From: Steroidobacter sp.
GTDB taxonomy: Bacteria; Pseudomonadota; Gammaproteobacteria; Steroidobacterales; Steroidobacteraceae
Reading direction: 5' to 3'
NCBI GenBank assembly: GCA_025929585.1
Contig: JAICPY010000030.1
Coordinates: 1-40,700, forward strand
DNA: 40,700 bases
Part shown: positions 7,268-38,920 of the stretch, piece after piece
Position numbering within the stretch: position 1 is the stretch's first letter
Layout of the letters: every line of letters starts with the position of its first letter
Translations under genes and position numbers: made by a program
The notes under the pieces: generated by a model
The model's database searches: none
What the model was told of the DNA's origin: nothing
The model's input: the letters and a program-made list of their open reading frames with translations, nothing else

Positions 7268-7400
7268 GTGACGCGTGACGAGTGACGGGTGACGAGATCA
7301 GCCCCAGACGCGAAACAGATCATAGATCGCAATTGGGGCTTCCTTCGCACGTTGGATAAGGAACTTCCTTCTTGCCCGTCACTCGTCACCCGTCACTTCG
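7268..7400. repeat. heptad-word palindrome, GTGACGR family, copy 1
   Basis: The left arm (7268-7295) is four consecutive 7-base words GTGACGC/A/G/A. The right arm (7375-7400) reads CGTCACT, CGTCACC, CGTCACT. The arms can pair over roughly 25 bases around an 80-base centre that contains ACTTCCTTCTTG just before the right arm. The element fills the gap between the convergent regulator gene and ureG, and its right arm provides the TGA stop of ureG (7393-7395). Confidence 0.8.
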
Positions 7401-8013
7401 TGGCGCGCAACATTCCTTCCCTCTCAATAAACCCCACCACCTCACTCAACCCCTGTCCTGTCTTCAGATTCGTGAACACGAACGGACGATCGCCGCGCAT
7501 TTTTCGGGCATCTCGATCCATGACTTCCAAAGAGGCGCCGACGTGCGGTGCGAGGTCGATTTTGTTGATGATGAGCAGGTCGGAGCGAATGATGCCGGGG
7601 CCGCCTTTGCGCGGAATCTTGTCACCCGCTGCGACGTCGATGACATAGAGCGTTAAATCAGAGAGCTCCGGACTGAACGTCGCCGCGAGGTTGTCGCCGC
7701 CACTTTCCACGATGATCATGTCCAGTCCTTCGAACTCGCGCATCAATCCGTCGATTGCCGCGAGGTTCATCGAAGCATCTTCACGGATTGCCGTATGCGG
7801 GCAGCCGCCGGTCTCGACGCCTCGGATGCGTTCTTTCGGAAGAGCTTCGCTTCGAATCAGGAACTCCGCGTCCTCGCGCGTGTAGATGTCATTCGTAACC
7901 ACCGCGATGTTGAAACGATCGCGCATTTGCTTGCATAGCGAATCCACGAGCGCCGTTTTTCCGGAACCGACCGGCCCGCCGACTCCCAAGCGTAGAACGT
8001 CCGCCTTTGCCAT
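7393..8013 (-). CDS. ureG: urease accessory GTPase UreG
   Basis: 206 residues, typical of UreG, the SIMIBI-class GTPase that delivers nickel to urease together with UreE, UreF and UreD/UreH. The P-loop GPVGSGKT is at 13-20. The nickel-binding Cys-Pro-His motif is at 71-73, ESGGDN is at 103-108 and the guanine-specificity NKID is at 150-153, so every key motif is intact. No other urease gene is adjacent: a HupE/UreJ-type gene lies divergently upstream and the two-component regulator converges from downstream. The usual ureABC-D-E-F genes must be elsewhere. The gene ends inside the arm of a palindromic repeat. Confidence 0.96.
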
Positions 8014-8244
8014 ATTCGCGTATATCTAGTGATGAATAGGCAGCGGATCATACGATGACGGGCGTGCTAACGGCAGATGAGCGTGCGCGGGCTTATCACG
8101 TCGTTTGACGTATGGCGGATCTACTCGCACCTGCTTAGGTTGAGGATGCGGAAAGCTCGCTTTGCAAACGCTTGTGAGCGCAACAATCGTCGCTTAAAGT
8201 TCTCGACTAAAGTTTCTCAAGGACCTCACTCTCACAGAGATCTT

Positions 8245-8835
8245 ATGAAGTTGTCTGTTTTTCGTCCTGGATTGTTGGGCTTATTGCTGTCGATGCCGGC
8301 ATTGGCCTTCGCGCACACCGGAGCTGAGGGTGCGAGCTTCATACATGGCGTGGCGCATCCGCTGCAAGGCTGGGATCACCTGCTCGCAATGATCGCGATA
8401 GGTGTGCTTGCGAGTCGCATGGAGGGTGGCCAGCGTTTGCTACTGCCTGCTGCATTCATCTGTGCAATGGCAGCAGGAGGCGCGCTGGGGGCATCAGGCT
8501 ATCCTTTGCCTTGGGTCGAAACGTTCATTGCCTTGTCCCTCATTGCTTTCGGCGCCGCGATTTTTTTCGCGCGCCAACCTGCGCTTCCTTTACTTGCGAT
8601 CATCGCTGCGGGTTTCGCACTGTTTCACGGACATGCGCATGGTAGCGAGATGGTTGCAGGTTCCGTTGCGACCTACAGCGCCGGCTTCATGGTGTCCACA
8701 GCGACGCTGCACGGCATCGGCTTGTGGCTTTCATTACGCGTCCAGGCATTCGGTAACCGCGCTAAGACGCTGGTGCGCGTGAGTGGCGGTTTGATTGCGG
8801 CAAGCGGCCTCACGCTGTTGGGCATGGCTTTTTAA
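8245..8835 (+). CDS. HupE/UreJ family nickel permease-like membrane protein
   Basis: 196 residues from the ATG at 8245, chosen because it begins a clean signal peptide (about 22 residues, ending AFA-HTG). The open frame extends to 8077 but that part is charged and unlike the family. HupE/UreJ proteins are small multi-helix membrane proteins linked to nickel or cobalt uptake for hydrogenase or urease. The signature HPLQGWDH is present after the signal peptide, and a second histidine-rich segment (FHGHAHG) lies mid-protein. About six hydrophobic helices are visible. Its position divergent from ureG argues for a urease role (UreJ) rather than a hydrogenase role. The 230-base gap between them shows no clear promoter to me. 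Confidence 0.85.
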   Translation: MKLSVFRPGLLGLLLSMPALAFAHTGAEGASFIHGVAHPLQGWDHLLAMIAIGVLASRMEGGQRLLLPAAFICAMAAGGALGASGYPLPWVETFIALSLIAFGAAIFFARQPALPLLAIIAAGFALFHGHAHGSEMVAGSVATYSAGFMVSTATLHGIGLWLSLRVQAFGNRAKTLVRVSGGLIAASGLTLLGMAF

Positions 8836-8851
8836 GAAAGAAGCGCATTCG

Positions 8852-10987
8852 TCAGCCTGTCTTCGGCAGATCCGAGGGCGTGAATTGCTCGTGATAGAGC
8901 TGCGCGTACAGACCGCCTCGCGCCAACAATTCGTGATGACGCCCCATATCGGCGATTCGGCCTGCTTCCAACACCACAATTTGGTCTGCCCTCAGCACCG
9001 TGGATAGCCGGTGCGCGATTACGATCGAAGTCCGATTCTTCAGCAATCGCGCCGTGGCGGCCTGGATTCGTCGCTCGGCTTGCGAATCGAGCGCGGAAGT
9101 CGCTTCATCGAGAATCAGAATTTTCGGATCTTTGAGGAACGCACGCGCTATGGCTAGCCTTTGCTTCTGGCCTCCGGAAAGCACCGCACCGCGTTCCCCT
9201 ACTTCGGTCGCCAATCCGTCAGGAAGCTTCTGCACGAACTCCAACGCATTGGCCGCTTCCAGAGCGGCAACGATTTGCTCCTGAGTCGCATTCGGTGCTG
9301 CGAGCAACAAATTCTCGAGCACCGTGCCGGAGAACAGAATCGTTTCCTGATTGACGATGCCGATGTTCGCGCGAAGCGTGTCGAGCGCGAGCTCGCGCAA
9401 ATCATGCCCATCCAAGCGAATGACGCCCCCGGTTGGATCGTAGAACCGCGGCACGAGACTGGCCAACGTAGACTTACCCGCACCGCTCGGTCCAACAAAC
9501 GCGACCGACTGACCCGGCAGGATCGTCAAACTGATGTCCTTCAGAATGCTTTCATCGCCGTCGTAGCCGAACTGAACGTGATCGAATTCGATGCGGCCCT
9601 GGCATTCGGCCAGCCGTATCGGCTTTGCGTGCTCAGCCACATGAGGTTGCGTATCGAAGTACTCGAAAATGCGGTCGATGGCCGCTAGCGCGTTACTGAG
9701 CACGACACTCAAATCCGACAACCGCTGCAACGGCGAATAGAACATGCCCAGATACAAGAGGAATTGAGTAAGCGCGCCGACAGTGAGCTGACCGATCAGG
9801 ATCTGATGCACGCCATACCAAACCACCAAGACCGGTGCCGTGTGCACGACGAACCCGACGGCGACTTCGTTTGTGGCGGTGAACCGCACTGAATTCAGAA
9901 TCCGCTGCAGCAACTTGTTCGCATGCGATGCGAAACGCTTGGTTTCCGCCGACTCTCGCGCAAAGCCCTTCACGACCGCAACACCGGCCACCTTCTCATG
10001 CAGCTCGCCGGCGAGCACCTCGAGCCGCTGCTGCACTTCCTGACTGCTGTTACGAATCCTCGGTCCCATGGCACGCAGCGCGGCAATGTAGATGGGCATC
10101 AAGGACAAAGAAATCAGGGTCATCGTCGGATGAATCGAGATCAGGATCACGATCAACGCGATCAACAACGCGGCATCCATCCAGACATTCGTGAGCGCGG
10201 AGCCGACGAAGTTCTGCGCCAGACTGATGTCGTTGACGACGCGTGATGCAATTGCGCCAGTTTGATGCCGCGTGAAGAAGTCGTGCGACAAACGCTGCAC
10301 GTGACTGAACAACGCGACGCGAAGGTCTCGTATCAATCGATGCCCCGCAATTGCCGCGAATACGCTTCGATAATAGGTCGCAACCATCCATGCGACATTG
10401 ACCGCCAGCACGCCGCAAACCAGATAGAGAATCTTTCGATCGCGGGTCGCTGCGTCGATTGCCGTGTCTAACACCACATCGTCCAGCATCACCTTGAGCA
10501 TCCAAGGAAACGCGAGCGGTGCCAAAAACTTCACTAAGCCGCAGAACGTTGCCGCGCCGACGTAACGCAAGTAGGGACGCGCGTAGGCGAGGAATCGCCA
10601 GATCGGCGTGCGGCCCGTTTGAGTGATTTCGAAGCGATTGCGGATGGAGCCGCCAAAACCGTTTTTGACGTCACGGATTCGATGTGCACTGACATCGACT
10701 TCCGCGTACCACGAATGCTCCTGCAACTGGCGGATATCGTCCGGACGCAAGCTGCCAGGCAGCCGGCTTTCCGGAATCGCCGAAGCTGCCAACATGTCTT
10801 CATCTGCCTCGATGACGAGTGCGACATGCGGGTCGGTATCACCACCCGGCTGACGATACAGACCGCTCAACAGCAAAGCCGCATCGTGCCAGCGGCTAAA
10901 CATGTAATGACGGCCTTGCGAGCGAACCAAGCCTTTGGTCAGGAGTTCGCTGACTTCCGAGGTGCGACACAAATAGTAGACGATCAT
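8852..10987 (-). CDS. ABC exporter (fused permease/ATPase) with an extra N-terminal domain
   Basis: 711 residues from the ATG at 10987 (a TTG at 10990 is an alternative). Residues about 130-440 form a six-helix type IV exporter membrane domain (MsbA/LmrA-like). The ATPase domain has Walker A at 499-507 (GPSGAGKST), signature LSGGQ at 603-607, Walker B ILILDEAT at 623-630 and switch His659. Typical half-exporters are about 580-610 residues; the extra 115-120 N-terminal residues are discussed in the findings. They resemble the start of KptA/Tpt1-type ADP-ribosyltransferase folds but lack the histidine. The substrate is unknown: lipid, peptide or drug are all possible. It is monocistronic, with its stop 17 bases from the convergent HupE-like gene. 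Confidence 0.88.
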   Translation of the reverse strand: MIVYYLCRTSEVSELLTKGLVRSQGRHYMFSRWHDAALLLSGLYRQPGGDTDPHVALVIEADEDMLAASAIPESRLPGSLRPDDIRQLQEHSWYAEVDVSAHRIRDVKNGFGGSIRNRFEITQTGRTPIWRFLAYARPYLRYVGAATFCGLVKFLAPLAFPWMLKVMLDDVVLDTAIDAATRDRKILYLVCGVLAVNVAWMVATYYRSVFAAIAGHRLIRDLRVALFSHVQRLSHDFFTRHQTGAIASRVVNDISLAQNFVGSALTNVWMDAALLIALIVILISIHPTMTLISLSLMPIYIAALRAMGPRIRNSSQEVQQRLEVLAGELHEKVAGVAVVKGFARESAETKRFASHANKLLQRILNSVRFTATNEVAVGFVVHTAPVLVVWYGVHQILIGQLTVGALTQFLLYLGMFYSPLQRLSDLSVVLSNALAAIDRIFEYFDTQPHVAEHAKPIRLAECQGRIEFDHVQFGYDGDESILKDISLTILPGQSVAFVGPSGAGKSTLASLVPRFYDPTGGVIRLDGHDLRELALDTLRANIGIVNQETILFSGTVLENLLLAAPNATQEQIVAALEAANALEFVQKLPDGLATEVGERGAVLSGGQKQRLAIARAFLKDPKILILDEATSALDSQAERRIQAATARLLKNRTSIVIAHRLSTVLRADQIVVLEAGRIADMGRHHELLARGGLYAQLYHEQFTPSDLPKTG

Positions 10988-11242: not shown

Positions 11243-11345
11243 GGTGTGAATGTATCAAGGTGAAGACGTGTAGCGTCAGAAGTGCGCGCGGGCGCGCTCT
11301 GACTTTACACTTTACACGCCTTACACCTTTACACCGGCGCTAGCC
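11243..11345. repeat. octad-word palindrome, GGTGTAAA/TTTACACC type
   Basis: The right arm (11314-11345) is a run of TTTACAC/TTTACACG/CCTTACAC/CTTTACACC words. The left arm (11243-11274) is a decayed complement beginning GGTGTGAA. Between them is a strong inner hairpin, GTCAGA-AGTGCGCGC / GCGCGCTC-TGAC (11275-11313). It occupies the gap between tRNA-Ser and the Bax-inhibitor gene. The rest of 11216-11536 shows only a short AAGCCC/GGGCTT hairpin (11223-11238) and a promoter-like motif. Confidence 0.65.
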
Positions 11346-11536: not shown

Positions 11537-12208
11537 ATGGATCGTTATCCCAGTACTGTCGCCAGCACCTCGCGAGAATCCGCGCTGACGACTAACAAAG
11601 TACTTCGTAATACGTATTTGTTGCTCGGAGCGACGCTTGCGTTCAGCGCGGTGACGGCCGGGTTGTCGATGGCATTGAACGTTCCGCATTTCGGGTTGTT
11701 CACGTTGCTCGTTTACTTCGGCCTCCTGTTCGCGGTTCACAAGACGCAGAACAGCGGATGGGGCCTGGTCTGGACGTTCGCTCTGACCGGGTTCATGGGC
11801 CTGACCTTAGGTCCGATTCTGAATGCGTACTTGACGGCACTGCCTAACGGCGGCCAGATCGTGACGACTGCTCTGGGCACGACTGCGGTCGCCTTCTTGG
11901 GCTTGTCCGCGTACGCGGTCAAGAGCGGGCGCGACTTCAGTTTCATGGGCGGGTTCTTGGCGATTGGCGCAATCGGCGCATTCGTGCTCGGGATCGTAGC
12001 GATCCTGTTCAACCTTTCCACGCTTTCTCTGGTGGTGTCGGGAATGTTCTTGATCGTCAGCGGCGGCTTCATGCTCTATCAGACGAGCCAGATCGTGCGC
12101 GGCGGCGAGACGAACTACATTCTTGCGACGATCACGCTGTACGTCAGCATCTACAACATGTTCTTGAGCTTGCTGCACCTGCTCGGAGCCGCCTCAGGCG
12201 ACGATTGA
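11537..12208 (+). CDS. Bax inhibitor-1/YccA family inner-membrane protein
   Basis: 223 residues from the ATG at 11537, with AGGAGA seven bases upstream. The open frame begins earlier (11408), but that part reads across promoter-like DNA and is rejected. Seven hydrophobic segments follow a polar N-terminus, with the family's NKVLRNTYLLLGATLAFSA at the first helix, GLxLGP in the middle and the aspartate-containing end (LLGAASGDD). In Escherichia coli, YccA modulates FtsH-dependent degradation of SecY; other members (YbhL, YetJ) act as pH-sensitive calcium leaks. Which role applies here cannot be told. The gene is monocistronic and closed by a strong terminator. Confidence 0.9.
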   Translation: MDRYPSTVASTSRESALTTNKVLRNTYLLLGATLAFSAVTAGLSMALNVPHFGLFTLLVYFGLLFAVHKTQNSGWGLVWTFALTGFMGLTLGPILNAYLTALPNGGQIVTTALGTTAVAFLGLSAYAVKSGRDFSFMGGFLAIGAIGAFVLGIVAILFNLSTLSLVVSGMFLIVSGGFMLYQTSQIVRGGETNYILATITLYVSIYNMFLSLLHLLGAASGDD

Positions 12209-12271: not shown

Positions 12272-12410
12272 AGTGATGAGGTGATGGAGTGATGGCGTCA
12301 GAAACGAGGTGATGAAGTGGTGAGGTCATGACGACAGAATAGAAGACCTTCCTCCTATTCTGTCGTTATCACCGCATCACCTTATCACTTCATCACCGCA
12401 TTACCGTGGG
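12272..12410. repeat. octad-word palindrome, GTGATGR type
   Basis: The left arm (12272-12330) contains 8-base words AGTGATGA, GGTGATGG, AGTGATGG, AGGTGATG, AAGTGGTG, AGGTCATG. The right arm (12367-12408) reads TATCACCG, CATCACCT, TATCACTT, CATCACCG, CATTACCG. The centre is a perfect 12-base stem ACGACAGAATAG / CTATTCTGTCGT (12331-12342, 12355-12366) capped by a loop containing CCTTCC. It lies between the Bax-inhibitor terminator and the convergent serS stop. Confidence 0.85.
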
Positions 12411-12414: not shown

Positions 12415-15137
<2,723 letters not shown>

Positions 15138-15540: not shown

Positions 15541-16206
15541 CTACTGTTTGGCGGCAGCGCTGCCTGGGTCGCCGATCACATCGGCCCCGGGCGGCACTTT
15601 GAAAGTGAATCGGGAAGGATCGAGCACGGGATTGCGCTCGACATTAGTGAATTCCAAGCGCGTCGTTTGACCTAGCTTGTCGGCCAGATGCATGTGACGC
15701 AGGGTCGTGCCCTCGAAACCCAAGCGCACCGATTTGAAATCCGTGTCGTTGCGTTTCGGTTCCATCTGGACCCACTGGATCGGCCCGTCGGTTACGGTTT
15801 CCGTCACCGTGAAGTTGTCTTCCAGATTGCCTTCACCACTCAGCAGCATGGCTGGAGTGGCAGATAATGTATCGTCGAGTTTACGTACCGTGACTTGCTC
15901 CAAGTCGCTGTCGTAAAGCCAAACGCGAGAGCCATCCGCGACGATGACTTGCTCGTACGGCTCGCGATAATCCCAGCGAAAACGATTGGGACGCTTGATT
16001 GCAAGCACGCCGCTCGCCTCATCGATTGCACGGCCCGAGCGATCGGTCAGGACCTGATGAAACTGCGCCTGCAGGCCCTGCAGCTCGCCGAGAAAGGACT
16101 GAACACGATCTTGTCCTGCCTTCAAGTCGCCACTCGCGCCATGGGCGGACAACGATAGTGCAAGCAGCGCAAGGCCTGAGCAAATAGGAAGTCGAAAGAA
16201 GCTCAT
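15541..16206 (-). CDS. lolA: outer-membrane lipoprotein carrier protein LolA
   Basis: 221 residues with a signal peptide of about 24 residues (ends SAHGASG). LolA takes lipoproteins from the LolCDE transporter and ferries them across the periplasm to LolB. Family features include the LxGLxAQFHQ segment after the signal, GVLAIKRPNRFRWDYREPYEQVIVADGSRVWLYD, and the hydrophobic cavity strands ending in LRHMHLADKLGQTTRLEFTNVE. The position between ftsK and rarA is the conserved order. The ftsK stop lies 62 bases upstream on the same strand. Confidence 0.95.
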   Translation of the reverse strand: MSFFRLPICSGLALLALSLSAHGASGDLKAGQDRVQSFLGELQGLQAQFHQVLTDRSGRAIDEASGVLAIKRPNRFRWDYREPYEQVIVADGSRVWLYDSDLEQVTVRKLDDTLSATPAMLLSGEGNLEDNFTVTETVTDGPIQWVQMEPKRNDTDFKSVRLGFEGTTLRHMHLADKLGQTTRLEFTNVERNPVLDPSRFTFKVPPGADVIGDPGSAAAKQ

Positions 16207-16268: not shown

Positions 16269-18590
16269 CTAATCCTCGATGGGCGGAGGTGCCAGGACTT
16301 CACGCGCCCCGTTCGACTGCAGCGGACCGACGAGACCGGCCGCTTCCATCGTCTCGATCATGCGTGCGGCGCGGTTATAACCAATTTTCAAACGCCGCTG
16401 CACGCCCGAGATCGACGCCTTGCGACTTTCGACGACGATTTTCACGGCTTGATCGTAGAGCGGATCCTGCTCTCCATCCGCGCCTTCTCCTTCGATGCCG
16501 CCGCCTTCGGAAGGTTCACCAGGCAATCCTGGAATCGGGCCGCTCGGTCCTTCGAGAATCTCGCGCACGTAGGAAGGCTCGGAGCCTTTCAACGCGCCGA
16601 CGACACGATGGACTTCTTGATCGGAGACGAATGCACCGTGAACGCGATTCGGTACCGAGGTACCGGGCTGCAAGAACAACATATCGCCATGGCCGAGTAA
16701 TTGCTCCGCGCCCATCTGGTCGAGAATCGTACGCGAATCGACTTTCGCAGAAACTTGGAAAGCGATGCGCGTCGGAATGTTCGCTTTGATCAAACCGGTG
16801 ATGACATCGACCGAGGGGCGTTGAGTCGCGAGGATCAAATGAATACCTGACGCGCGTGCTTTCTGCGCGAGTCGCGCGATCAACTCTTCCACCTTTTTGC
16901 CGACGATCATCATCATGTCGGCCAACTCATCGACGATGACGACGATGAACGGCAACGGCTCCAACAATGGAACTTGATTCGGATCGCCTTCGGGCCCGAG
17001 CTGCTTGATCAACAATGGGTCGCGAATCGGCTGGCCGGATTCGTGCGCATCTTTGATCTTGCGATTGAACCCCGCGAGATTCCGAACGCCCATCGCGGCC
17101 ATCAATTGATAGCGCCGCTCCATCTCCGCGACGCACCAGCGCAGCGCATTCGCCGCCTCCTTCATGTCGGTCACAACCGGTGCAAGCAGATGCGGAATGC
17201 CTTCATACACGGACAATTCGAGCATCTTCGGATCGATCATGATGAGTCGTACGTGCTCGGCCGTTGCCTTGTACAAGAGCGACAACACCATCGCGTTCAC
17301 AGCGGTCGACTTGCCCGAGCCTGTCGTACCCCCGACGAGCAAGTGCGGCATCCGGGCCAGATCGGCCACCACAGGAGCACCGCTGATATCCTTGCCGAGC
17401 ACCAACGCAAGCGGAGAAGTCATCTCATCGTACGCTCTGGACTTGATGATCTCGCCAAGCGTCACGAGCTCGCGCTTCTCATTCGGAATTTCCAACCCCA
17501 CCGTCGATTTGCCGGGGATGACCTCGACGATGCGCACGCTGATAGAGGACAGAGCGCGTGCCAGATCCTTCGCAAGGTTACTGATCTGACTGACTTTGAC
17601 GCCGGGCGCGAGTCGCAGCTCGAATCGAGTGATGATCGGACCAGGATGCACTTCGACGACTTCGGCTTCGACACCGAAGTCGCGCAACTTGAGCTCCACC
17701 AAGCGCGACATGGCTTCGAGCGCTTCGGCCGAATACCCGGCTTGTTGTTTCGGCGGATCGTCGAGTAGCGACAGCGGAGGCAGCTCTTTCGCTGCCGGCC
17801 GATCGAACAACGGAACCTGGCGCTCTTTCTCGACGCGTTCGCTCTTTTCGACTTTCTGTACAACGGGCTCGATCTTGGGTGGCGGTCGGCTGGCGACGCG
17901 ACGCTGCTCTTCGCGAATGACTTCGCTGCGCGCTTCCTTCTTCTCGCGACCGGCTTTGATCTCGCGTTCACTGGATACTTTGCGCCGCAGCCACTCCATG
18001 CCGCCGAGCGTGGCGCGCCCGACGCGATCCATGACTTCGATCCAAGACAAGCCCACGAAAAGCGACACGCCGGCGAGCCACAGCGCGAGCAACAGCAATG
18101 TCGCGCCGAGGAAGCTCAGTGCACCTTCCAACCCCTCACCGACGAGTGAACCTAAGACCCCGCCTGCGGAGCTCGGATAACTGTCGATGGTGAAATGCAA
18201 GCTCGCGAGTCCACAGCTCGTTGCCAACGTGAGCAGGAATCCAACGCCACGGAAGGCCAGCGTCGCGCGCGAAGGCGCATCGGCTTTGCTTCGATCTTGG
18301 TACAAGAGCCAGCCGGCGAACCCGATCATGATCGGAAACAGGAAAGCCGGCGCGCCGAACAACAGAACGAGGAGCCCAGCGAGATGCGCGCCGAACGGAC
18401 CGATCGCATTCGACAAGGGACCGGGCTCTCCAGTCGTCGCGAACGAGGGATCGTTGCGGTCATACGTCGCCAGCGCGGCAAGCACGATGAATGCGAGCGC
18501 GCCGAACACCCAAAGCGCACCTTCGCGCAACGAGCGCACGACCGCCGAGCCCAGCTTCATCCCCCCTTGCACTTCAGCGCGAGTCGCCAA
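16269..18590 (-). CDS. ftsK: DNA translocase FtsK
   Basis: 773 residues from a TTG at 18590 with GAGG upstream; an ATG at 18560 is the alternative start. FtsK couples chromosome dimer resolution at dif with septation. Four or five membrane helices lie in residues 25-190. The linker (200-290) is short, charged and rich in E/K/R. The RecA-like motor has Walker [11 protein letters not shown] at 420-429 and Walker [12 protein letters not shown] near 550. A winged-helix gamma domain (about 705-773, [19 protein letters not shown]) recognises KOPS and activates XerD. The linker is much shorter than in Escherichia coli FtsK and comparable to SpoIIIE-type proteins. An upstream lrp gene, usual in enterics, is absent. 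Confidence 0.95.
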
Positions 18591-18829: not shown

Positions 18830-19794
<965 letters not shown>

Positions 19795-19795
<1 letters not shown>

Positions 19796-19875
19796 GGATA
19801 GAAAGGCAGGGGATGGGGGATAGAAGATTCCGAGTGCTCATCCGTATCGCCTATCCGCTATCCCCTATCGCCTTC
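19795..19875. repeat. heptad-word palindrome, GGGGATA/TATCCCC family, copy 2
   Basis: The left arm (19795-19825) contains GAGGATA, GGGGATG, GGGGATA. The right arm (19841-19875) contains TATCGCC, TATCCGC, TATCCCC, TATCGCC and then TTCT. The right arm, including the final TATCGCCTTCT, matches copy 1, and the orientation is the same even though the flanking genes run the opposite way. It fills the trxB-acetyltransferase gap. Confidence 0.8.
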
Positions 19876-21052: not shown

Positions 21053-21753
21053 GAGGCTCCATCGTATGGTTGTCCGAGCGCGATTCTCCCCAAGCGTTCC
21101 CGCCGGTCGAGCGGGCCCTCAGTGAACCAGATGGCTTGCTTGCGGCTGGTGGCGATCTATCGCCGCCGCGTCTACTAGAGGCGTACCGGCGAGGCATCTT
21201 TCCCTGGTATTCGCGTGGTCAACCGATTCTGTGGTGGTGTCCGGATCCGCGCGCCGTTTTGATTCCTCAACGGCTAAAGGTCTCACGGAGCCTAGCGAAA
21301 ACACTGCGCAATCGCGGCTTCGAAACGCGTGTCGATCAGTCCTTCCGAGAAGTGCTGCGCTACTGCGGCAGCAGTGAGCTACGTCCGGGCGGTACTTGGC
21401 TGTCCCCTGAGATGCGAGCTGCCTACCTGCGCTTACACAAGCTCGGCTACGCGCACAGCGTTGAAACCTGGCGAGAAGGACAACTGGTCGGTGGTTTGTA
21501 TGGGATCGCTTTGGGCAGAGTGTTCTTTGGGGAATCGATGTTCAGCTTGGGGCGTGACGCTTCTAAAGTCGCGCTAAAGCGTTTATGCGATGAACTGGTG
21601 GCCCGCGAATATCACTTGATCGATTGCCAAATGGCGACCCCTCACTTGATGAGCCTTGGAGCCGAGCTGATCCCGCGCATGGAATTCATCGAGCTACTCT
21701 CTGCGCATGTCGGCGATGAACTCACTGCGCGTGAGTGGCTGCAGACGGCTTGA
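21049..21753 (+). CDS. aat: leucyl/phenylalanyl-tRNA-protein transferase
   Basis: 234 residues, the usual length. Aat adds Leu or Phe to proteins with N-terminal Arg or Lys, creating the N-degrons that ClpS delivers to ClpAP. Family phrases present are EPDGLLAAGGDLSPPRLLEAYRRGIFPWY, ILWWCPDPRAVL, GTWLSPEMRAAYLRLHKLGYAHSVE, GRVFFGESMFS and LIDCQMATPHLMSLGAE. clpA and clpS lie about 1-3 kb downstream on the other strand, so the whole N-end-rule pathway is clustered here. Confidence 0.97.
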   Translation: MRGSIVWLSERDSPQAFPPVERALSEPDGLLAAGGDLSPPRLLEAYRRGIFPWYSRGQPILWWCPDPRAVLIPQRLKVSRSLAKTLRNRGFETRVDQSFREVLRYCGSSELRPGGTWLSPEMRAAYLRLHKLGYAHSVETWREGQLVGGLYGIALGRVFFGESMFSLGRDASKVALKRLCDELVAREYHLIDCQMATPHLMSLGAELIPRMEFIELLSAHVGDELTAREWLQTA

Positions 21754-21865: not shown

Positions 21866-21890
21866 CTATCCCGTATCCGCTATCCGCTTC
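21866..21890. repeat. orphan arm of the TATCCCC word family
   Basis: CTATCCCG, TATCCGC, TATCCGC and TTC follow the same words and the same orientation as the right arms at 13819 and 19841. I find no matching left arm upstream in the aat-infA gap. It may be a decayed or half element. Confidence 0.55.
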
Positions 21891-22195: not shown

Positions 22196-22207
22196 AGCGC
22201 TTCGCGA

Positions 22208-22360
22208 GTTGGCAGTTGACGGTTGACCGTTGACGGCCAGAGAAGGACAAACCAAAAAAAGGCCGGCAATGCCGGCCTTTTTGTTTTCTGACTGCGAATT
22301 CTCAACGGTCGACGACAACCCACTTCTGCTTGCCAACCGTCAACTGTCAACCGTCAACCG
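22208..22360. repeat. heptad-word palindrome, GTTGACG family, copy 1
   Basis: The left arm (22208-22236) is GTTGGCA, GTTGACG, GTTGACC, GTTGACG. The right arm (22332-22360) is CAACCGT, CAACTGT, CAACCGT, CAACC. The infA terminator is nested in its centre, followed by TTTTCTGACTG. It lies between the convergent infA and clpA stop codons. Confidence 0.85.
22254..22287 (+). terminator. rho-independent terminator after infA
   Basis: A perfect 7-base GGCCGGC / GCCGGCC stem with an AAT loop is flanked by seven A on one side and a T-run on the other. It can therefore serve both infA and the convergent clpA. Confidence 0.92.
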
Positions 22361-22369
22361 GCGAAGCCC

Positions 22370-25098: not shown

Positions 25099-25253
25099 CA
25101 ACGTCGACGCATACTCGGTTCGGTCTCTTTATAGGGGGGAAAGGCAGACAATACAAGGCGGCATCGGACGCATAAAAAGGATGGCGTCACGGTTCGGTAG
25201 GGGGAACTCTCAAAAGGCGAAACTCGACTAACGACGTGGGAGGCCGAGATCTC

Positions 25254-25370
25254 AAGTCCCCAGTCTGCAGTCTGTAGTCCGTAGCAAGGAGTCAGCAGCC
25301 AATCAGCACCCGCACGCGGGTTGCGATCCAATTCTGGCCACGGACCAGGGACTGCAGACTTTGGACTCCC
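25254..25370. repeat. heptad-word palindrome, AGTCYGY family, copy 1
   Basis: The left arm (25254-25285) is AAGTCCC, CAGTCTG, CAGTCTG, TAGTCCG, TAGC. The right arm (25342-25370) is GGACCAG, GGACTGC, AGACTTT, GGACTCC, preceded by AATTCTGGCCAC. It occupies the middle of the 400-base gap between divergent clpS and gspC; the remainder shows only a possible gspC promoter. Confidence 0.8.
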
Positions 25371-25420
25371 CCTCTCCATTCGTCCTTTTGCGACAGTGTT
25401 TCGCTAATTGGAACAATCTC

Positions 25421-28827: not shown

Positions 28828-30369
28828 ATGCCAATGAGCACACACGCTGAAATAGAACCCGCCTTGGCCAATGTTGCGATCGCAGCGCCGATGACCTTGG
28901 CCTCGGCTCAGCAAAAGCTGTCATTCGCTTTTTGTAAGCGGCATGGCGTGCTGATCCAGCGCATCGACGAGCACTGCGCAGAGGCCGTGTACCGCGCTGG
29001 AGCGCAGCCCTCGAGCATTGCGGAGGTGCGCCGCGTGCTCGGCATTCCTTTGCAGTTGCGGCGGGTAGACAGCGAGTCATTCGATCAGCTATTGCGCCAA
29101 CAATATGAGGGCGGCACGAATACCGCGATGCAGATGGTCGGCGGTATGGAAGACGATACCGATCTGGCTCATCTGGCGCAGGACCTTCCCGAGCCGTCGG
29201 ACTTGCTCGAAAGCGACGACCAAGCGCCGATCATCAAATTGATCAATGCGATCTTGACGCAGGCCGTCAAAGACAATGCATCGGATATTCACATCGAACC
29301 CTTCGAGAATCGCCTAGTGGTTCGATTCCGTGTCGATGGTGTGCTGAGAGAGGTTCTGCAGTCTCGTCGAGCGGTTGCATCGTTAGTCGTCTCTCGTATC
29401 AAGGTCATGTCCAAGCTCGACATTGCCGAGAAGCGATTGCCTCAAGACGGACGCATCTCGTTGCGTGTCGCTGGTCGCGCGGTCGACGTCCGCGTTTCCA
29501 CAATCCCGGCAGGACATGGTGAGCGCGTCGTGCTTCGCTTGCTCGACAAGCAGGCCGGCCGTCTCGAGCTCAACGCGCTTGGAATGGATCCTCGAACTCA
29601 GTCGTTGATGGACGAGCTGATTCACAAGCCGCACGGCATCTTGCTCGTGACCGGCCCCACCGGCTCGGGTAAGACGACGACGCTGTACTCGGCGCTGGAG
29701 CGTATCAACGACAATACGCGCAACATCATGACGGTCGAAGATCCAATCGAGTACTACATCGACGGGATCGGCCAGACTCAGGTCAATACAAAGGTCGAAA
29801 TGACTTTCGCCCGCGGGCTGCGTGCCATCCTGCGTCAAGATCCGGATGTAGTCATGATCGGCGAAATTCGCGATCTGGAAACCGCGCACATCGCGGTCCA
29901 AGCTTCGCTTACCGGCCACTTGGTGCTCTCGACACTGCATACAAACACTGCAGTGGGTGCCGTCACGCGCCTACGCGACATGGGTGTCGAACCCTTCCTA
30001 CTCTCTTCTAGCTTGATCGGCGTGCTCGCTCAACGGCTCGTGCGAGTTCTGAACCCAGATACAAAAGAAGCCTACCAAGCCGGCGAATACGAGCGGCGGT
30101 TGATGAACGTACCCGCTGGCGCAGCGTCGCCGACGCTTTATCGCCCCGGCAACGATCCGACGCACGGTTTCAAGGGACGCACCGGCATTTACGAGCTCGT
30201 GGTCGTGGACGACGCGATGCGCACCATGATCCACGACGGTTCGAGCGAGCAAGAGCTCGAACGTCACGCTCGCAAGCTCACACCGAGCATCCGCGACGAC
30301 GGTCGATCGAAGATCCTGTCGGGCGTCACGACGATCGAAGAAGTGTTGAGAGTGACAAGGGAAGATTAG
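28828..30369 (+). CDS. gspE: type II secretion ATPase GspE, lacking the tetracysteine zinc motif
   Basis: 513 residues. It is the cytoplasmic AAA-like ATPase that powers pseudopilus assembly. N1E-type domains lie at about 20-130. Walker A is GPTGSGKTT at 276-284, the Asp box is MTVEDPIEYY at 301-310, Walker B is DPDVVMIGEIRDLETA and the His box is STLHTNTA. The usual CxxC-(n)-CxxC module after the His box is replaced: where LCPDCK normally stands the sequence is LNPDTK (408-413), and no cysteine occurs up to the GRTGIYEL motif. The gap after gspD is 87 bases. The stop codon abuts a heptad-word palindrome that separates it from gspF. Confidence 0.94.
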   Translation: MPMSTHAEIEPALANVAIAAPMTLASAQQKLSFAFCKRHGVLIQRIDEHCAEAVYRAGAQPSSIAEVRRVLGIPLQLRRVDSESFDQLLRQQYEGGTNTAMQMVGGMEDDTDLAHLAQDLPEPSDLLESDDQAPIIKLINAILTQAVKDNASDIHIEPFENRLVVRFRVDGVLREVLQSRRAVASLVVSRIKVMSKLDIAEKRLPQDGRISLRVAGRAVDVRVSTIPAGHGERVVLRLLDKQAGRLELNALGMDPRTQSLMDELIHKPHGILLVTGPTGSGKTTTLYSALERINDNTRNIMTVEDPIEYYIDGIGQTQVNTKVEMTFARGLRAILRQDPDVVMIGEIRDLETAHIAVQASLTGHLVLSTLHTNTAVGAVTRLRDMGVEPFLLSSSLIGVLAQRLVRVLNPDTKEAYQAGEYERRLMNVPAGAASPTLYRPGNDPTHGFKGRTGIYELVVVDDAMRTMIHDGSSEQELERHARKLTPSIRDDGRSKILSGVTTIEEVLRVTRED

Positions 30370-30448
30370 TTGACCGTTGGCGGTTGACGGCCATGCGAGA
30401 ACAAGAATCACGCTTTCTTTTCTGACCGTCAACTGTCAACCGTCAACC
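30369..30448. repeat. heptad-word palindrome, GTTGACG family, copy 2
   Basis: The left arm (30369-30390) is GTTGACC, GTTGGCG, GTTGACG. The right arm (30425-30448) is ACCGTCAACTGTCAACCGTCAACC in 7-base register. The centre contains CTTTCTTTTCTGAC. It fills the gap between gspE and gspF within one operon, so transcription of gspF must pass through it. Confidence 0.85.
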
Positions 30449-30468
30449 GCAACCTTATACTTCCACCT

Positions 30469-31683
30469 ATGGGCGCTTTCGAATACACGGCTCTCGATCC
30501 CACTGGGCGCGAACGCAAAGGCGTTCTGGAAGGCGATACCGCGCGGCAGGTGCGCCAGTTGTTGCGCGAGCAGAGTCTGTTGCCTGTCGCAGTCACGGAA
30601 GTTGCGCAAACCGAAAGTCGTCGTAAAACGACGTTCACGATTCGCCGAGGCGTCTCCGCAAGCGACCTGGCGCTCATGACTCGTCAGCTCGCCACGCTCG
30701 TGCACTCAGGATTGCCGCTCGAGGAAGCCCTCATGGCGGTGTCCGAGCAATCCGAAAAGCCGCGAATTCGTACGATCGTCATGGGCGTACGCGCGAAAGT
30801 GATGGAAGGTCACGCGCTCGCCGATGGCCTCGCCGACTTCCCTACGGTCTTTCCGGAGATTTACATCGCCACCGTTTCAGCCGGCGAGCAATCAGGCCAC
30901 CTCGATACGGTGCTGGAGCGTCTCGCGGACTACACCGAGAATCGTGAGCAGATGCGCAGCCGAACGATCAACGCAATGCTGTATCCCGTGTTGTTGTTCA
31001 CGGTCTGTATCGGAATTGTGTTCATGCTGCTGACATTCGTGGTGCCTAAGATCGTCAAACAGTTCGAGAACTCCAAGGCAGAGCTGCCGATACTGACGCG
31101 CTCACTGATTGCCATCTCCGATTTTGTGCGGGACTACGGCATCTTCGTGATCGCCGGTCTCATCATCGGCGTCATCCTCTTCCGTCGCTGGCTTCGAGAC
31201 CCGAACGCGAAGCGTCGCTTCCATGCTTTCCTGCTACGCGTGCCATTGTTTGGGAAGGTCGTGCGCGGCACGAACACAGCCCGCTTCGCACGCACGTTTG
31301 CCACATTGACCTCGAGCGCCGTTCCAGTGTTGGATGCGCTGAGAATCTCAGGCGAAGTCGTGACCAACCTTCCGATGCGCGATGCTGTAGAAGTTGCCGC
31401 AACGCGCGTGCGTGAGGGCGCACCGATCGGCAAATCCCTTGGGGCATCAAAGATTTTCCCCCCAATGATGATCCATCTTATCGCGAGCGGTGAAACCAGC
31501 GGCGAGCTGGAAACGATGCTCGACCGTGCGGCCACGAATCAAGAGCGAGAGATGGATTCCATCCTTGGCGCCGTCGTCGGTTTATTGGGACCGCTGATGA
31601 TCTTGGTCATGGGTGGGCTCGTTTTGCTGATCGTGCTGGCCATGTTATTGCCGATCTTCCAGTTGAATGAGCTCATAGCGTGA
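30469..31683 (+). CDS. gspF: type II secretion inner-membrane platform protein GspF
   Basis: 404 residues, the standard GspF/PilC length. It is a polytopic protein of the inner-membrane platform that contacts GspE. It opens MGAFEYTALDPTGRERKGVLEGDTARQVRQLLRE in family register. Two cytoplasmic repeats follow, each with the GxxLEEAL / SGxVLDALR pattern (30-150, 265-355), and three membrane helices lie near residues 170-190, 220-240 and 370-395. The TGA stop is also the first base triplet of a GTGACG-family palindrome. No gspG-N genes follow. Confidence 0.95.
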   Translation: MGAFEYTALDPTGRERKGVLEGDTARQVRQLLREQSLLPVAVTEVAQTESRRKTTFTIRRGVSASDLALMTRQLATLVHSGLPLEEALMAVSEQSEKPRIRTIVMGVRAKVMEGHALADGLADFPTVFPEIYIATVSAGEQSGHLDTVLERLADYTENREQMRSRTINAMLYPVLLFTVCIGIVFMLLTFVVPKIVKQFENSKAELPILTRSLIAISDFVRDYGIFVIAGLIIGVILFRRWLRDPNAKRRFHAFLLRVPLFGKVVRGTNTARFARTFATLTSSAVPVLDALRISGEVVTNLPMRDAVEVAATRVREGAPIGKSLGASKIFPPMMIHLIASGETSGELETMLDRAATNQEREMDSILGAVVGLLGPLMILVMGGLVLLIVLAMLLPIFQLNELIA

Positions 31684-31758
31684 CGGGTGACAAGTGACGA
31701 GTGACGGGTAAGATCTCGAATGACGAGCTTCCTGCTCGTCACCCGTCACTTCGTCACC
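31681..31758. repeat. heptad-word palindrome, GTGACGR family, copy 2
   Basis: The left arm (31681-31708) is TGACGGG, TGACAAG, TGACGAG, TGACGGG, beginning with the gspF stop. An inner hairpin GACGAGC-TTCCT-GCTCGTC (31722-31740) runs into the right arm CGTCACC, CGTCACT, TCGTCACC (31737-31758). The orientation is the same as copy 1 at 7268. Confidence 0.85.
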
Positions 31759-31857
31759 CATACCGCTTTCCCCTCTTGCCGGCCTCTCCCCTACCCTTTA
31801 TATACTCGCACCGCTCGTATCCACTTCGTTCGACCTGCAACTCAAGCATGTGATTGG

Positions 31858-34888: not shown

Positions 34889-35017
34889 GTTCGCGCTTAC
34901 TAGCTGGAGCTAAACATATCTGAACACACCGACCCTGCTGCGCTTCGGCCAAAATGATCGTTGTGTATAAGATGCACAGCGGGAACGCCAGTGTTTGGCA
35001 GTTGTTATCGTCGGGCT

Positions 35018-36136: not shown

Positions 36137-36151
36137 CGCTAGGAGCTCTCT

Positions 36152-36254
36152 CAGTCCGCAGTCTACAGTCCGTAGTCCGCAGCAAGAAAAAGGTCTGAAG
36201 CGGTAGCGTGAAATTTTGGCTTCGGACCAGGGACTGCGGACTGCAGACTCCCTC
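36152..36254. repeat. heptad-word palindrome, AGTCYGY family, copy 2
   Basis: The left arm (36152-36183) is CAGTCCG, CAGTCTA, CAGTCCG, TAGTCCG, CAGC. The right arm (36224-36254) is GGACCAG, GGACTGC, GGACTGC, AGACTCC, preceded by AATTTTGGCTTC. Both arms and the junction before the right arm match the copy at 25254. It lies between the convergent GH43 and small-lipoprotein genes. Confidence 0.85.
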
Positions 36255-36265
36255 CCATTTCTCTT

Positions 36266-36691
36266 CTACCTCGGCATATCCGGGCATACATACGGCACTG
36301 AGATCGATACATAAGTTTCTCGACCGCCGGTACCTACCGGCTCCAGCACGAGCTCGCGACTGCTTGGCTGAGAATATTCCGCTTCGATCGGAATCGTGTC
36401 TTCGATCCAGCGTATACGGGTGGGCGAGATAATTCCCCATTGGGATACCCGGAAAGTTTCGAAGCAAGAATCTTGCAAGACGGATTTATCCGGCAGAAAG
36501 ACCAGGATGGATCCGCGCGCGTGCCTCGGGGTCGTCGAAACCCAGATCTTGCCGACGAAAGAAGGCAACTGCTCCTCGCTGGATTCCGCCATCGCCGATG
36601 ACGCAGGCGCGGCGGGCGCTGGCTGCTGAGTGTCGCAGGCGCTCATGAGAACTAACGAGCAAAGCACACCGTATCGTTTGTAACCGTTCAT
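36266..36691 (-). CDS. small hypothetical lipoprotein
   Basis: 141 residues. The signal peptide carries the lipobox LMSAC with Cys19 as anchor, and a low-complexity Ala/Pro/Ser linker (24-45) follows. The remainder (FVGKIWVSTTPRHARGSILVFLPDKSVLQDSC...) has the alternating pattern of a small beta-barrel, similar in style to META/HslJ or lipocalin-like lipoproteins, but I recognise no family. Two cysteines (near 74 and 137) could form a disulfide. GAGG precedes the ATG. It is probably followed on the same strand only by the repeat at 36152. Confidence 0.7.
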   Translation of the reverse strand: MNGYKRYGVLCSLVLMSACDTQQPAPAAPASSAMAESSEEQLPSFVGKIWVSTTPRHARGSILVFLPDKSVLQDSCFETFRVSQWGIISPTRIRWIEDTIPIEAEYSQPSSRELVLEPVGTGGRETYVSISVPYVCPDMPR

Positions 36692-36727
36692 CGCAGCCTC
36701 GGTTTGATCAAGCAGTCATACAGTAGA

Positions 36728-37234
36728 TCATCTGTTCTTCAGCATCGTTCGCAGGCGAACGATGAAACGCTGGGGATCATCCGGAGTAATCACGATCCGC
36801 CGCTTGCCGTAATTCAGGATGACAGCACGCGATGGATCCGTAGCAAACGCTCGGTAGCGTCCGGTTTTGCGGTTCCAAAAATAGCCGCTGTACGACAGCA
36901 AGCCGCCGTTGCCTAGCAGTCGCAATGAGTTTGCCATTGCCTCGTTATCGCCGTTGACTGAGAGCAGACCTTCGATCGGCAAGCGATGAATCCATCCTAA
37001 ACGCTTCACGACAATCTCGCGCCCTGTGAGCACGTATCCTTGCACCATGCAGAGCGCGCAAACAACCAAGATAACGGGAGGCAACGCCACGGCGAGCAGG
37101 GTCATCGGAACCCGAGTCTGCCGCCAGGCAAATGCGGCGCCCACCGCCACAAGACACAGCGCGCCGACAGAAATCATCGACGCACGGCGCAGTCCTGGGC
37201 TCCAAGGAGCTTTGAATTCGATTGGGGCATTCAT
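36728..37234 (-). CDS. hypothetical inner-membrane protein with a bacterial PH-like domain
   Basis: 168 residues if started at the ATG at 37234; an ATG at 37252 is also possible and the ribosome binding site decides neither. Two membrane helices (about 23-40 and 48-68) form a hairpin. After it comes YVLTGREIVVKRLGWIHRLPIEGLLSV, the typical start of a bacterial pleckstrin-homology domain, and the protein ends KRRIVITPDDPQRFIVRLRTML, the typical end of that domain. The function of such proteins is mostly unknown. It lies 36 bases upstream of the small lipoprotein in the same direction, and divergent from the aldo/keto reductase. Confidence 0.7.
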   Translation of the reverse strand: MNAPIEFKAPWSPGLRRASMISVGALCLVAVGAAFAWRQTRVPMTLLAVALPPVILVVCALCMVQGYVLTGREIVVKRLGWIHRLPIEGLLSVNGDNEAMANSLRLLGNGGLLSYSGYFWNRKTGRYRAFATDPSRAVILNYGKRRIVITPDDPQRFIVRLRTMLKNR

Positions 37235-37398
37235 GGCAGTATTAAATACCATTGGGCGTTCTGGCCCAAGTAGCCTGCCGAATAGGATCACTGCGTCTAT
37301 ACTTCCGGCACCCGACTCGCAAATCTGCGATTCGAACCTGCCGCTTCGCAACAGCCTTCTGGCTGAACCTCGACTATCTCGACTTTAGGACTCGATCT

Positions 37399-38424
37399 AT
37401 GTATCTCGCGAATGAACGACGCTACCAAGAAATGAGCTATGCGCGCTGCGGACGGAGCGGTGTGCAATTGCCGAAGATTTCGCTCGGACTTTGGCAGAAC
37501 TTCGGCGGAGTGACCCCCTATGAAAATGCGCGCGAAATGGTGCTTCGCTCGTTCGATCATGGCATCACGCATTTCGATCTAGCAAATAACTACGGCCCTC
37601 CTCCCGGCTCGGCTGAAGAAAATTTCGGTCGCATCTTGAAAGCCGATCTCGCCGCGCACCGCGATGAGCTGATCATCTCCACGAAAGCCGGATATTTGAT
37701 GTGGCCGGGGCCATACGGCGAGTGGGGTTCGCGCAAGTATCTACTTGCAAGCTTGGATCAGAGCCTGAAGCGCATGGGTCTGGATTACGTGGACATCTTC
37801 TATTCGCACCGTGTCGATCCGAATACGCCATTGGAAGAAACGATGGGCGCACTAGATACCGCGGTACGCAGCGGTCGCGCTCTGTACGTTGGCATTTCCT
37901 CCTACGGTCCCAAGAAAACACGTGAGGCCGCAGCGATCCTGCGTGAGCTCAAGACTCCTTTCATCATTCACCAGCCTTCCTACTCGATGCTCAATCGCTG
38001 GGTCGAGGATGGTCTCTTGGATGTCCTCAAGGATGAAGGCATCGGATGCATCGCCTTCTCACCACTCGCTCAGGGATTATTGACCACGAAGTACTTGAAC
38101 GGAGTGCCTGAACGCTCGCGTGCCGCACTCGGCGGATCCTTCGGCAAGCATATGCTCAGCGAACAAAATTTGAACAACGTTCGTGCGCTCAATGATCTCG
38201 CTCAGCGTCGCGGCCAAACGCTCGCGCAAATGGCGATCTCTTGGGTCCTTCGCCAACCAGCCATTACCACAGCCCTGATCGGCGCAAGCCGCTGGTCGCA
38301 GATCGAGGAATGTATCAGCGCGATCAAAAGCGCCCCGTTCACTGCGGAGGAGCTCGCGGCGATCGACAAACACGCCTCCGACGGCGGATTGAACATCTGG
38401 GCAGCATCGAGTCAGTCAGGTTGA
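37399..38424 (+). CDS. aldo/keto reductase, YghZ/Mgr-like
   Basis: 341 residues from the ATG at 37399 with AGGA ten bases upstream; the upstream extension is rejected. It is an NADPH-dependent (alpha/beta)8 reductase. The catalytic tetrad is intact: Asp60 and Tyr65 (HFDLANNYGPPPGSAEENFG), Lys96 (ISTKAGY) and His137 (YSHRVD). The PPPGSAEENFGRIL segment and the 'MWPGPYGEWGSRKYLL' loop are typical of the AKR14/YghZ (L-glyceraldehyde-3-phosphate or methylglyoxal reductase) and voltage-gated-channel beta-subunit group. It may detoxify sugar-derived aldehydes, which fits the neighbouring glycosidases; the substrate is inference. Confidence 0.9.
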   Translation: MYLANERRYQEMSYARCGRSGVQLPKISLGLWQNFGGVTPYENAREMVLRSFDHGITHFDLANNYGPPPGSAEENFGRILKADLAAHRDELIISTKAGYLMWPGPYGEWGSRKYLLASLDQSLKRMGLDYVDIFYSHRVDPNTPLEETMGALDTAVRSGRALYVGISSYGPKKTREAAAILRELKTPFIIHQPSYSMLNRWVEDGLLDVLKDEGIGCIAFSPLAQGLLTTKYLNGVPERSRAALGGSFGKHMLSEQNLNNVRALNDLAQRRGQTLAQMAISWVLRQPAITTALIGASRWSQIEECISAIKSAPFTAEELAAIDKHASDGGLNIWAASSQSG

Positions 38425-38431
38425 ACAGCGG

Positions 38432-38524
38432 GTTGGGAGTTGACAGTTGACGGTTGACGGCAAAACGAGCAGCGTGGCTTTCTTCCGCTTCTGACTGTCA
38501 ACTGCCAACCGTCAACCGTCAACC
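38432..38524. repeat. heptad-word palindrome, GTTGACG family, copy 3
   Basis: The left arm (38432-38460) is GTTGGGA, GTTGACA, GTTGACG, GTTGACG. The right arm (38495-38524) is CTGTCAACTGCCAACCGTCAACCGTCAACC. The centre has CTTTCTTCCGCTTCTGAC, matching copies 1 and 2 at the junction. It starts eight bases after the aldo/keto reductase stop and ends eight bases before the next gene. Confidence 0.88.
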
Positions 38525-38531
38525 ATCCAAC

Positions 38532-38744
38532 GTGTTGCGCTCCATCACAGGTTTCCACCAAGACGATGAAAGGCATTGGGTTGCCGAGCTTGAGTGTGGG
38601 CATCAGCAGCACGTACGGCACAACCCTCCATGGATGGTGAGAACATGGGTGATGACACCGGAAGGTAGGCAATCCGCAATCGGACAAACGCTAGAGTGTC
38701 GGCTCTGCGATCAAGAACAGGCATCCTCGATGAAGGTAGACTGA
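38532..38744 (+). CDS. DUF3565 family small protein
   Basis: 70 residues from a GTG at 38532. The frame is open further upstream, but those codons are the repeat arm and the family begins at LRSITGFHQD, so the GTG is preferred. Family features are ITGFHQDDERHWVAELECGHQQHVRHNPPW in order and EGRQSAIGQTLECRLCD at the end. Cys and His residues (ECGHQQHVRH and CRLC) suggest a metal site. The function is unknown. It probably depends on read-through from the aldo/keto reductase gene across the palindrome. Confidence 0.8.
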   Translation: MLRSITGFHQDDERHWVAELECGHQQHVRHNPPWMVRTWVMTPEGRQSAIGQTLECRLCDQEQASSMKVD

Positions 38745-38792
38745 AACGTAGTTCTTCACGAGGAAGGCGCCAGAATCACAAGCGACAAGAAA

Positions 38793-38920
38793 TCTCTCGC
38801 AGAGTCGCGGAGAACGCAGAGATTCTCGGAAAACAAACAGAGCGGCGAACCTTCCGTTCTGTACTCGCATCTATCCGTTCCCTTTCTGTCTCTGCGCGCC
38901 CTGCGTCTCTGCGAGAGACC
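38793..38920. repeat. octad-word palindrome, CGCAGAG/CTCTGCG type
   Basis: The left arm (38793-38829) has CGCAGAGT, CGCGGAGA, ACGCAGAG. The right arm (38887-38920) has CTCTGCGC, GCCCTGCG, TCTCTGCG, AGAG. The inner part, ACAGAGCGG...ACCTTCCGTTCTGT, forms an imperfect second stem with CCTTCC in the loop, as in the 12272 element. It accounts for much of the 331-base gap before the GH95 gene; I see no other feature in that gap. Confidence 0.75.

Follow-up and report, generated by a model that had tools for sequence, protein, structure and literature searches.

Inverted arrays of short words at gene ends in a Steroidobacter genome and its relatives

Word arrays in the window and in the genome

The window analysed here is a 40,700-nucleotide stretch of a Steroidobacter sp. 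genome (assembly GCA_025929585.1, contig JAICPY010000030.1, corresponding to bases 1-40700 of the contig labelled C24). Twelve of its gaps contain a palindromic element in which two arms, each composed of consecutive copies of a short word, face each other as reverse complements. The elements have a common anatomy. Both arms carry the same word, are oriented with a short cap inwards, mostly do not match in their degenerate letters and enclose a spacer that is distinct at each locus. They lie at gene ends, belong to families that are patchily distributed over the genus, and change their word at orthologous gaps. All twelve had been listed in a preliminary description of the window, and each reads as a pair of reverse-complement word arrays.

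The word GTGACGR forms two of the elements. One is directly 3′ of the stop codon of a response-regulator gene, its arms flanking a spacer (7266-7399), and the other overlaps the end of the T2SSF gene (31678-31762). GTTGACN forms three, located at the downstream end of clpA, where a hairpin resembling an intrinsic terminator is enclosed (22206-22362), between the T2SSE and T2SSF genes, as named by Pfam (30369-30452), and 3′ of an aldo/keto reductase gene (38424-38527). The closest named relatives of ClpA, among the matches listed, were metagenome-assembled genomes (MAGs) of unclassified Proteobacteria with identity up to 79%, followed by one Gammaproteobacteria MAG and then by Woeseiaceae MAGs. 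GSSGATA elements are found between serS and the gene of an MgsA_C (RarA-type) ATPase (13697-13850) and 3′ of the stop codon of a pyridine nucleotide-disulphide oxidoreductase (19793-19873), and AGTCYGY elements upstream of the T2SSC gene (25252-25372) and 3′ of a glycosyl hydrolase family 43 gene (36151-36253). The remaining three comprise an 8-base GTGTAARG / TTTACAC type adjoining tRNA-Ser, with caps GTCAGA and TCTGAC (11243-11335), an 8-base GTGATGAR element past the terminator of the Bax1-I gene (12272-12408), and a loosely 8-base palindrome of CGCAGAG type (38793-38918). Earlier word tallies, such as GTTGACG three times, agree with this re-reading. The orphan GATA-type arm reported previously is also present, at 21867-21888 with its G-rich word on the minus strand; it lies between the end of a gene at 21753 and the start of the GTTGACN element at 22206, and no partner was found for it.

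Automated pairing recovered nine of the twelve (starts 7266, 12272, 13714, 19808, 22206, 30369, 31678, 36152 and 38430), and visual inspection confirmed the elements at 11243, 25254 and 38793. The strict period of 7 or 8 bases originally proposed holds in part. Both periods are present, a period of 9 occurs in the genome as well, the element at 38793 is only loosely periodic (8-10 bases), and the left arms of the elements given earlier as 13697 and 19795 are degenerate. At gathering score, Rfam matched the tRNA alone in the window and none of the elements.

The genome as a whole (G000; 5.13 Mb, 297 contigs, 97.6% complete) was sampled as the window plus 20 fetched stretches (L031-L050), 437,601 bases in total, and array counts were compared with a third-order Markov simulation. 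The window holds 13 arrays of period 7 and one of period 8, against none in each of five simulations. In the sample, 95 arrays have period 7, 25 have period 8 and 20 have period 9, where one simulation gave 3, 0 and 2. Paired calls total 83, where three simulations gave 4, 5 and 1, and these counts bear out the expectation of high genome-wide abundance. A listed word stands at both ends in 72 of the 83 paired calls; GC-rich coding matches are among the remaining 11. The 78 pairs shorter than 215 bp scale to approximately 915 elements per genome. Over the entire genome, three consecutive copies of GTTGACN match 58 times forward and 88 times in reverse, compared with 1 + 1 for the reversed control pattern.

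Arms, caps and spacers

About ten words with periods of 7-9 occur in the genome, among them GTTGACN, GTGACGR (7), GTGACGRR (8), GTGATGNNN (9), GSSGATA, GCGGTTR, AGTCYGY and GTGTARRN. On either strand it is the G-rich form of the word that reads inward. The cap, G[TC][CA][AG]GA, lies immediately inward of the last word, irrespective of which word it is. The TTCTG(A/T)C-like string noted before the right arm in the preliminary description was correctly observed and represents the complement of this cap, now found on both arms. In GTTGACN arms the cap starts exactly one base past the last word in 36 of 58 arms of the own genome and in 23 of 31 arms of G007, an element-rich relative of the same genus. 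Over 64 pairs it lies at most 8 nt from the word in 38 left and 35 right arms (73/128), against 2.6% of random 8-mers. Counted by class within 9 nt, where chance gives 3.4%, the cap is found in the own genome in 38/50 GTTGACN, 13/25 GTGACGR, 13/36 GSSGATA, 9/23 AGTCYGY, 6/12 GTGATGNNN, 2/7 GCGGTTR and 3/7 GTGTARRN arms. Among the relatives, the count is 21/26 for GTTGACN and 13/19 for GGGGCYT in G007, and 11/16 for GCGGTTR and just 1/6 for GTTGACN in G008. The cap is not universal, since eight GGGAATC arms of G423, a genome of another family, carry a different inner motif.

When the arms of G007 are anchored on the last word and cap, three further words are conserved (fixed letters mostly at 0.75-0.95) and the next is at background; the own genome, anchored likewise, already shows a weaker third further word, at about 0.5-0.7. 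Because conservation ends after three words beyond the anchored one, an arm amounts to about four words plus the inner cap, with a length of about 34 nt. Exactly four copies are present in 10 of 16 GCGGTTR arms of G008. Long perfect arrays in a single arm also occur, one with about 13 copies in L050, and look like later slippage. At L309 (G000:C111, near 48.3 kb) the left arm is a long GGGAATC array and the right arm, also long, consists of another word, GGGAGTC; each arm seems to have expanded independently. The 9-base word CACGGAGNN was observed in paired arms of L133 (G002) and L117 (G008), with TTTCA on the outer side in both and inner ends of the type TCGGA or TCCGA.

One explanation for the number four, offered for Xanthomonas, is that four units are kept since four G-tracts fold into a G-quadruplex. 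Some of the words do contain G-tracts (GGGGATA, GGGGCYT, GGGAATC), but GTTGACN and GCGGTTR lack any GGG and are nevertheless arranged in paired, capped arms of four units as well. As the architecture is shared by words without G-tracts, quadruplex formation drops out as a general explanation and is given hardly any credence.

Neighbouring arms 8-250 nt apart were convergent in 51 cases, tandem in three and divergent in none. The word class is common to both arms in 46 of the 51 convergent pairs, where 16% would be expected, and three of the five mixed pairs combine GTGACGR with GTGACGRR. A partner was found for 85 of 110 strict arms of the own genome, with one further arm at the end of a stretch, and for 20 of 32 arms in the G007 stretches. 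The degenerate letters of the two arms match no better than those of shuffled partners at five of six tested positions, and the cap variants of the two arms are not associated (19 testable elements). Only arms that fit the word pattern entered these comparisons, and their fixed letters are therefore fixed by data selection. The exception is the second letter of GSSGATA, with 0.775 matching against 0.585, a level reached by 1% of shuffles. Copying of one arm from the other was rejected on account of the unmatched letters.

These observations bear on an origin from host processes alone, in which arrays are built by replication slippage, the second arm comes from template switching at a hairpin, and a few words are carried through the genome by ectopic gene conversion. 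Such an origin requires no new enzyme, and none was found; the long perfect one-arm arrays resemble slippage products, and heptamers are reported to be over-represented in many bacteria in the passages available of PMC4692102. A word-independent cap, a sharp length of four words and a constant cap-in orientation are not among its predictions. Template switching should also give matching arms, and only the GSSGATA position behaves in that manner. On this balance, host processes are an unlikely sole source of the elements.

The median distance between arms is 45 nt. Among 47 trimmed spacers the sole matching pair was one element counted twice, and of 50 matches at E<0.01 between spacers with caps and all sampled DNA, the 25 shown map to words, caps and terminator stems. 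The spacers are locus-specific. They have no internal sequence in common of the kind looked for in a miniature inverted-repeat transposable element or a derivative of an insertion sequence, and a copied master element was rejected as the spacers differ. Folding of whole elements gives -0.497 kcal/mol per nt, compared with -0.297 for random segments (n=61). Single arms have a mean of -4.28 kcal/mol against -3.57 after letter shuffling, with 31% of 124 arms below -5.

Within the spacers, beyond the caps, the first third has a purine content of 0.57 and the last third one of 0.43, the first being higher in 26 and lower in 6 of 38 elements. A nested arrangement is present at L034 (about 11739-11962), where a GTTGACN arm lies in the spacer of a GTGACGR element with approximately nine perfect copies in its right arm. 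Convergent GCGGTTR arms about 500 bp apart occur in two relatives (G012:C10:1352933-1353481 and G003:C3:444578-445102) and are possibly elements with a longer insert.

Placement at gene ends and change between relatives

Crude gene calling gave 50 convergent, 145 tandem and 51 divergent gaps of 30 nt or longer, of which 17, 35 and 4, respectively, were occupied by elements; 21 of 78 elements lay outside any called gap. The outer edge of the element is a median of 8 nt from the adjacent stop codon (n=69; 68% within 15 nt) and a median of 22 nt from the adjacent start (n=43). Intrinsic terminators were rejected as the identity of the elements, as no T-run follows the right arm in the elements read by eye, for which no count was made.

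Comparison of orthologous gaps between relatives was proposed in the preliminary description and reveals either different words or empty gaps. The relatives of the same genus (G001-G013) are about 71-83% identical to the own genome over longer DNA matches; G007 is only 75% complete, and G008 98% complete. The gap between the T2SSE and T2SSF genes holds GTTGACN in the own genome, a GGGACTG-type right arm with a degenerate left arm in G013, and a palindrome of a GCCGCAAA-type word in G002. It is 5-42 bp long with no element in G001, G003, G008, G009, G010, G011 and G012; G005 and G006 were unreadable there, G004 gave a distant match only, and G007 gave none. Seven of the nine elements in L032 can be compared with G007, and five of these seven gaps hold an element in G007, always with a different word. 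The gap at 16811 is filled with four words in as many genomes (G000, G007, G013 and G008), and the gap at 15706 with three (G000, G007 and G013, the last with one degenerate arm). Both gaps are empty in G011 and G006.

At the Bax1-I-serS gap, the arms in G007 enclose a terminator that is also present in G000, G011 and G013, and the spacer is thus old DNA, because the enclosed terminator is common to these genomes. In G000 the element sits beyond the shared terminator. Gap lengths were examined for ten elements with spacers of at least 40 nt in 29 comparisons, with arm limits placed manually and with the exclusion of 11 combinations of element and gap in which another element was known to be present. 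The median residual was -27 nt for gain of the whole element and +37 nt for gain of the arms alone, with a wide spread, which weakly favours gain of whole elements.

It has to be considered whether the elements are selected functional sites, either protein-binding arrays or hairpins at the 3′ end of mRNA, that arise repeatedly at gene ends. Their placement at stop codons, the avoidance of divergent gaps, the folding stronger than that of random segments and the use of the same gaps in several species all agree with this. Nevertheless, the degenerate letters do not covary between arms, so the pairing of arms is not finely selected. About ten words in one genome would demand equally many binders, the neighbouring genes look functionally unrelated, and the same gaps are without elements in several related species. 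Selection as the origin is accordingly thought improbable.

The word families are patchy over the 14 genomes of the genus, as judged from exact matches to three consecutive words on both strands. GTTGACN has 146 matches in G000, 113 in G007 and 11 in G008, and none in the other 57 of 60 genomes searched. GCGGTTR is found in G008 (217 matches, with 18 for the reversed control), G000 (160; 0), G012 (64; 5), G006 (21; 4), G007 (12; 0), G003 (10; 2) and G011 (1; 0), and GGGGCYT in G007 (31), G004 (3) and G013 (1). Across 369 genomes of the class, GTTGACN was detected only in the own genome and as one array in G309; GGGAATC likewise matched only the own genome and G423.

Arrays with other words extend further. 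The reversed control pattern of GTTGACN is itself a real word elsewhere, with 43+63 matches in G067, 1+63 in G182, 16+1 in G389, 12+0 in G307 and 0+8 in G142. Stretches of G067 (L298-L302), G182 (L303-L304) and G389 (L305-L306), which belong to other families, contain several heptamers of their own, partly paired: CAGTTGT, ACGAGKN, CTAGGTG, CAGTTGG and CAGCACT. Stretches of G007, G008, G067, G182, G389, G142, G307 and G423 were partly picked for holding words, and densities in them are biased. The spacers of different G067 elements look partly alike. Around clpA, 80 named records gave 56 paired matches against 30 simulated. Many of the matches look coding, but clear palindromes of other words can be recognised on inspection in L163, L196, L199 and L203. 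Paired arrays with other words also occur in other gammaproteobacterial genomes and in one betaproteobacterial record. Spread by phages or plasmids was rejected: two pattern matches were obtained in viral_contigs, neither with paired arrays in the stretch examined, and plasmids gave one weak 34-base match for one element.

Known systems and possible origin

The elements are not wholly new, as convergent inverted pairs of heptamers have already been published for Xanthomonas (Rehm et al. 2015, PMC4692102). This and the other papers cited are represented here by passages of their text. In two Xanthomonas genomes, 70 and 75 pairs of GGGAATC arrays are inverted and convergent, with a preference for four units, which has been linked to quadruplexes, and with placement at gene ends. 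Together with the GGGGA(C/T)T repeats of Nostoc (PMC4692102), they resemble the present elements in being degenerate heptamers in short intergenic arrays, mostly of four units, near stop codons, theirs being on the sense strand. Periods of 8 and 9 occur here besides, and GTTGACN, GTGACGR, AGTCYGY and GCGGTTR have no GGG inside the word. One word per genome is reported for Xanthomonas and Nostoc, in contrast to the ten or so found here together with the word-independent cap, the unmatched degenerate letters and the other words at orthologous gaps. The TAACTGA repeats of Beggiatoaceae (MacGregor 2015, PMC4679880) are also intergenic heptamer arrays of a gammaproteobacterium, but comprise one word in direct repeats, with 169 sets of which only one is inverted.

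REP dimers and REPINs (PMC3733652, PMC3116915) are similar in that units of 20-40 nt form inverted pairs around a spacer of 20-100 bp, lie between tandem and convergent genes and exist as many families per genus. Correspondingly, 51 of 54 neighbouring arms are convergent here. The earlier view that the elements are like REP/BIME in location and not in structure is upheld, as gene-end placement and inverted pairing are alike and the unit differs. The arms are tandem words and not individual stem-loops, given that a single arm folds little better than its shuffled letters. The GTAG/CGTC end tag is absent, with GTAG near only 5 of 162 arms; CGTC was not counted separately, since in the complements of GTTGACG and GTGACG it forms part of the word itself and does not stand as a single end tag. 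No REP-associated tyrosine transposase (RAYT) flanked by elements was seen, the 3.3-kb locus of the own Y1_Tnp gene having been inspected and the rest searched by family only. Neither a paper on the literal repeat strings nor a description of a word-independent cap, of several words in inverted pairs within one genome or of other words at orthologous gaps was met in the open-licence literature searched, which included few subscription journals.

It is quite possible, and is tentatively preferred here, that these are dispersed palindrome families which work in the manner of REP dimers and are built differently, with capped inverted word arms around a locus-specific spacer, gained at gene ends through a trans-acting factor. 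Elements would be gained mostly whole. The factor would recognise or produce the cap and could be respecified for the word, and a word family might spread in a lineage, decay and then be replaced by another. The preliminary description had ascribed the arrays to one mechanism that generates or copies them. The shared design with different words, evident in caps across word classes (73/128 arms) and in same-word pairs (46/51), makes this a fair inference, although no writer was identified.

Several points weigh against the preferred reading. No partner was found for 25 of 110 strict arms in the own genome and 12 of 32 in G007. Ordinary copying of a master element would not be expected to leave locus-unique spacers, and in one case, the Bax1-I-serS gap of G007, the arms enclose an older terminator. 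The preference given by gap lengths is slight, and no pair of sequences was close enough to display a clean empty site or a target duplication. Turnover is slower in Xanthomonas, because 83% of the repeats of one species are at the same place in the other (PMC4692102). Finally, no candidate factor was found.

Earlier papers on heptamer repeats, as far as the passages cover them, treated one word at a time and invoked slippage or G-quadruplexes. The cap, the fixed arm length, the unmatched pairs of the same word and the change of word at a given gap point to one process behind many such repeats. The old puzzle of why there are seven bases, four units and a stop codon nearby becomes testable through the factor that goes with the cap.

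The array structure raises the alternative of a telomerase-like or other templated polymerase that writes capped arrays, with the cap as the template boundary. In their 7-9-nt tandem words and fixed end, the arrays are similar to the products of DRT10 (9-nt repeats; PMC12632851), a cDNA that consists of short tandem repeats of one word with a defined boundary. DRT10 differs in that its cDNA is RNA-templated, extrachromosomal and part of phage defence, and chromosomal inverted pairs are not described in the passages seen. In the own genome RVT_1 matches once, to a group II intron maturase broken by an in-frame TGA (L234, G000:C77, about 47.6-48.2 kb), and no word array is present at that locus. 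A search with Pfam RVT_1, which did not include DRT10-specific models, found none in G005, G008, G010 and G013, even though G008 is nearly complete and rich in GCGGTTR matches. A polymerase of this type is considered very unlikely. Somewhat less so, and still doubtful, is a dedicated writer that builds capped four-word arrays at both edges of a gap, its word set by an exchangeable specificity part such as a template RNA, so that lineages would rewrite their gene boundaries in changing vocabularies through a telomere-like activity inside chromosomes.

The trans-acting factor of the preferred reading was also sought among Y1_Tnp genes, an associated RAYT having been suggested earlier. The own genome carries a single such gene, and neither G007 nor G012 has any; G002 has five and G010 two, and both of these genomes lack the three words counted. 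The suggestion is not supported, as there is no word array in the 3.3-kb Y1_Tnp locus of the own genome and element-rich G007, at its lower completeness, shows no such gene. RAYT and reverse transcriptase were both rejected as writers, since gene presence does not follow the elements. The best NCBIfam match of the own Y1_Tnp gene (290-aa frame) is the REP-associated tyrosine transposase, at 70.3 bits against a cut-off of 80. This frame lies in L251 (G000:C175:2392-2724), a locus with two Y1_Tnp-related stretches, the surroundings of which resemble a repeated segment with similar DNA on both sides.

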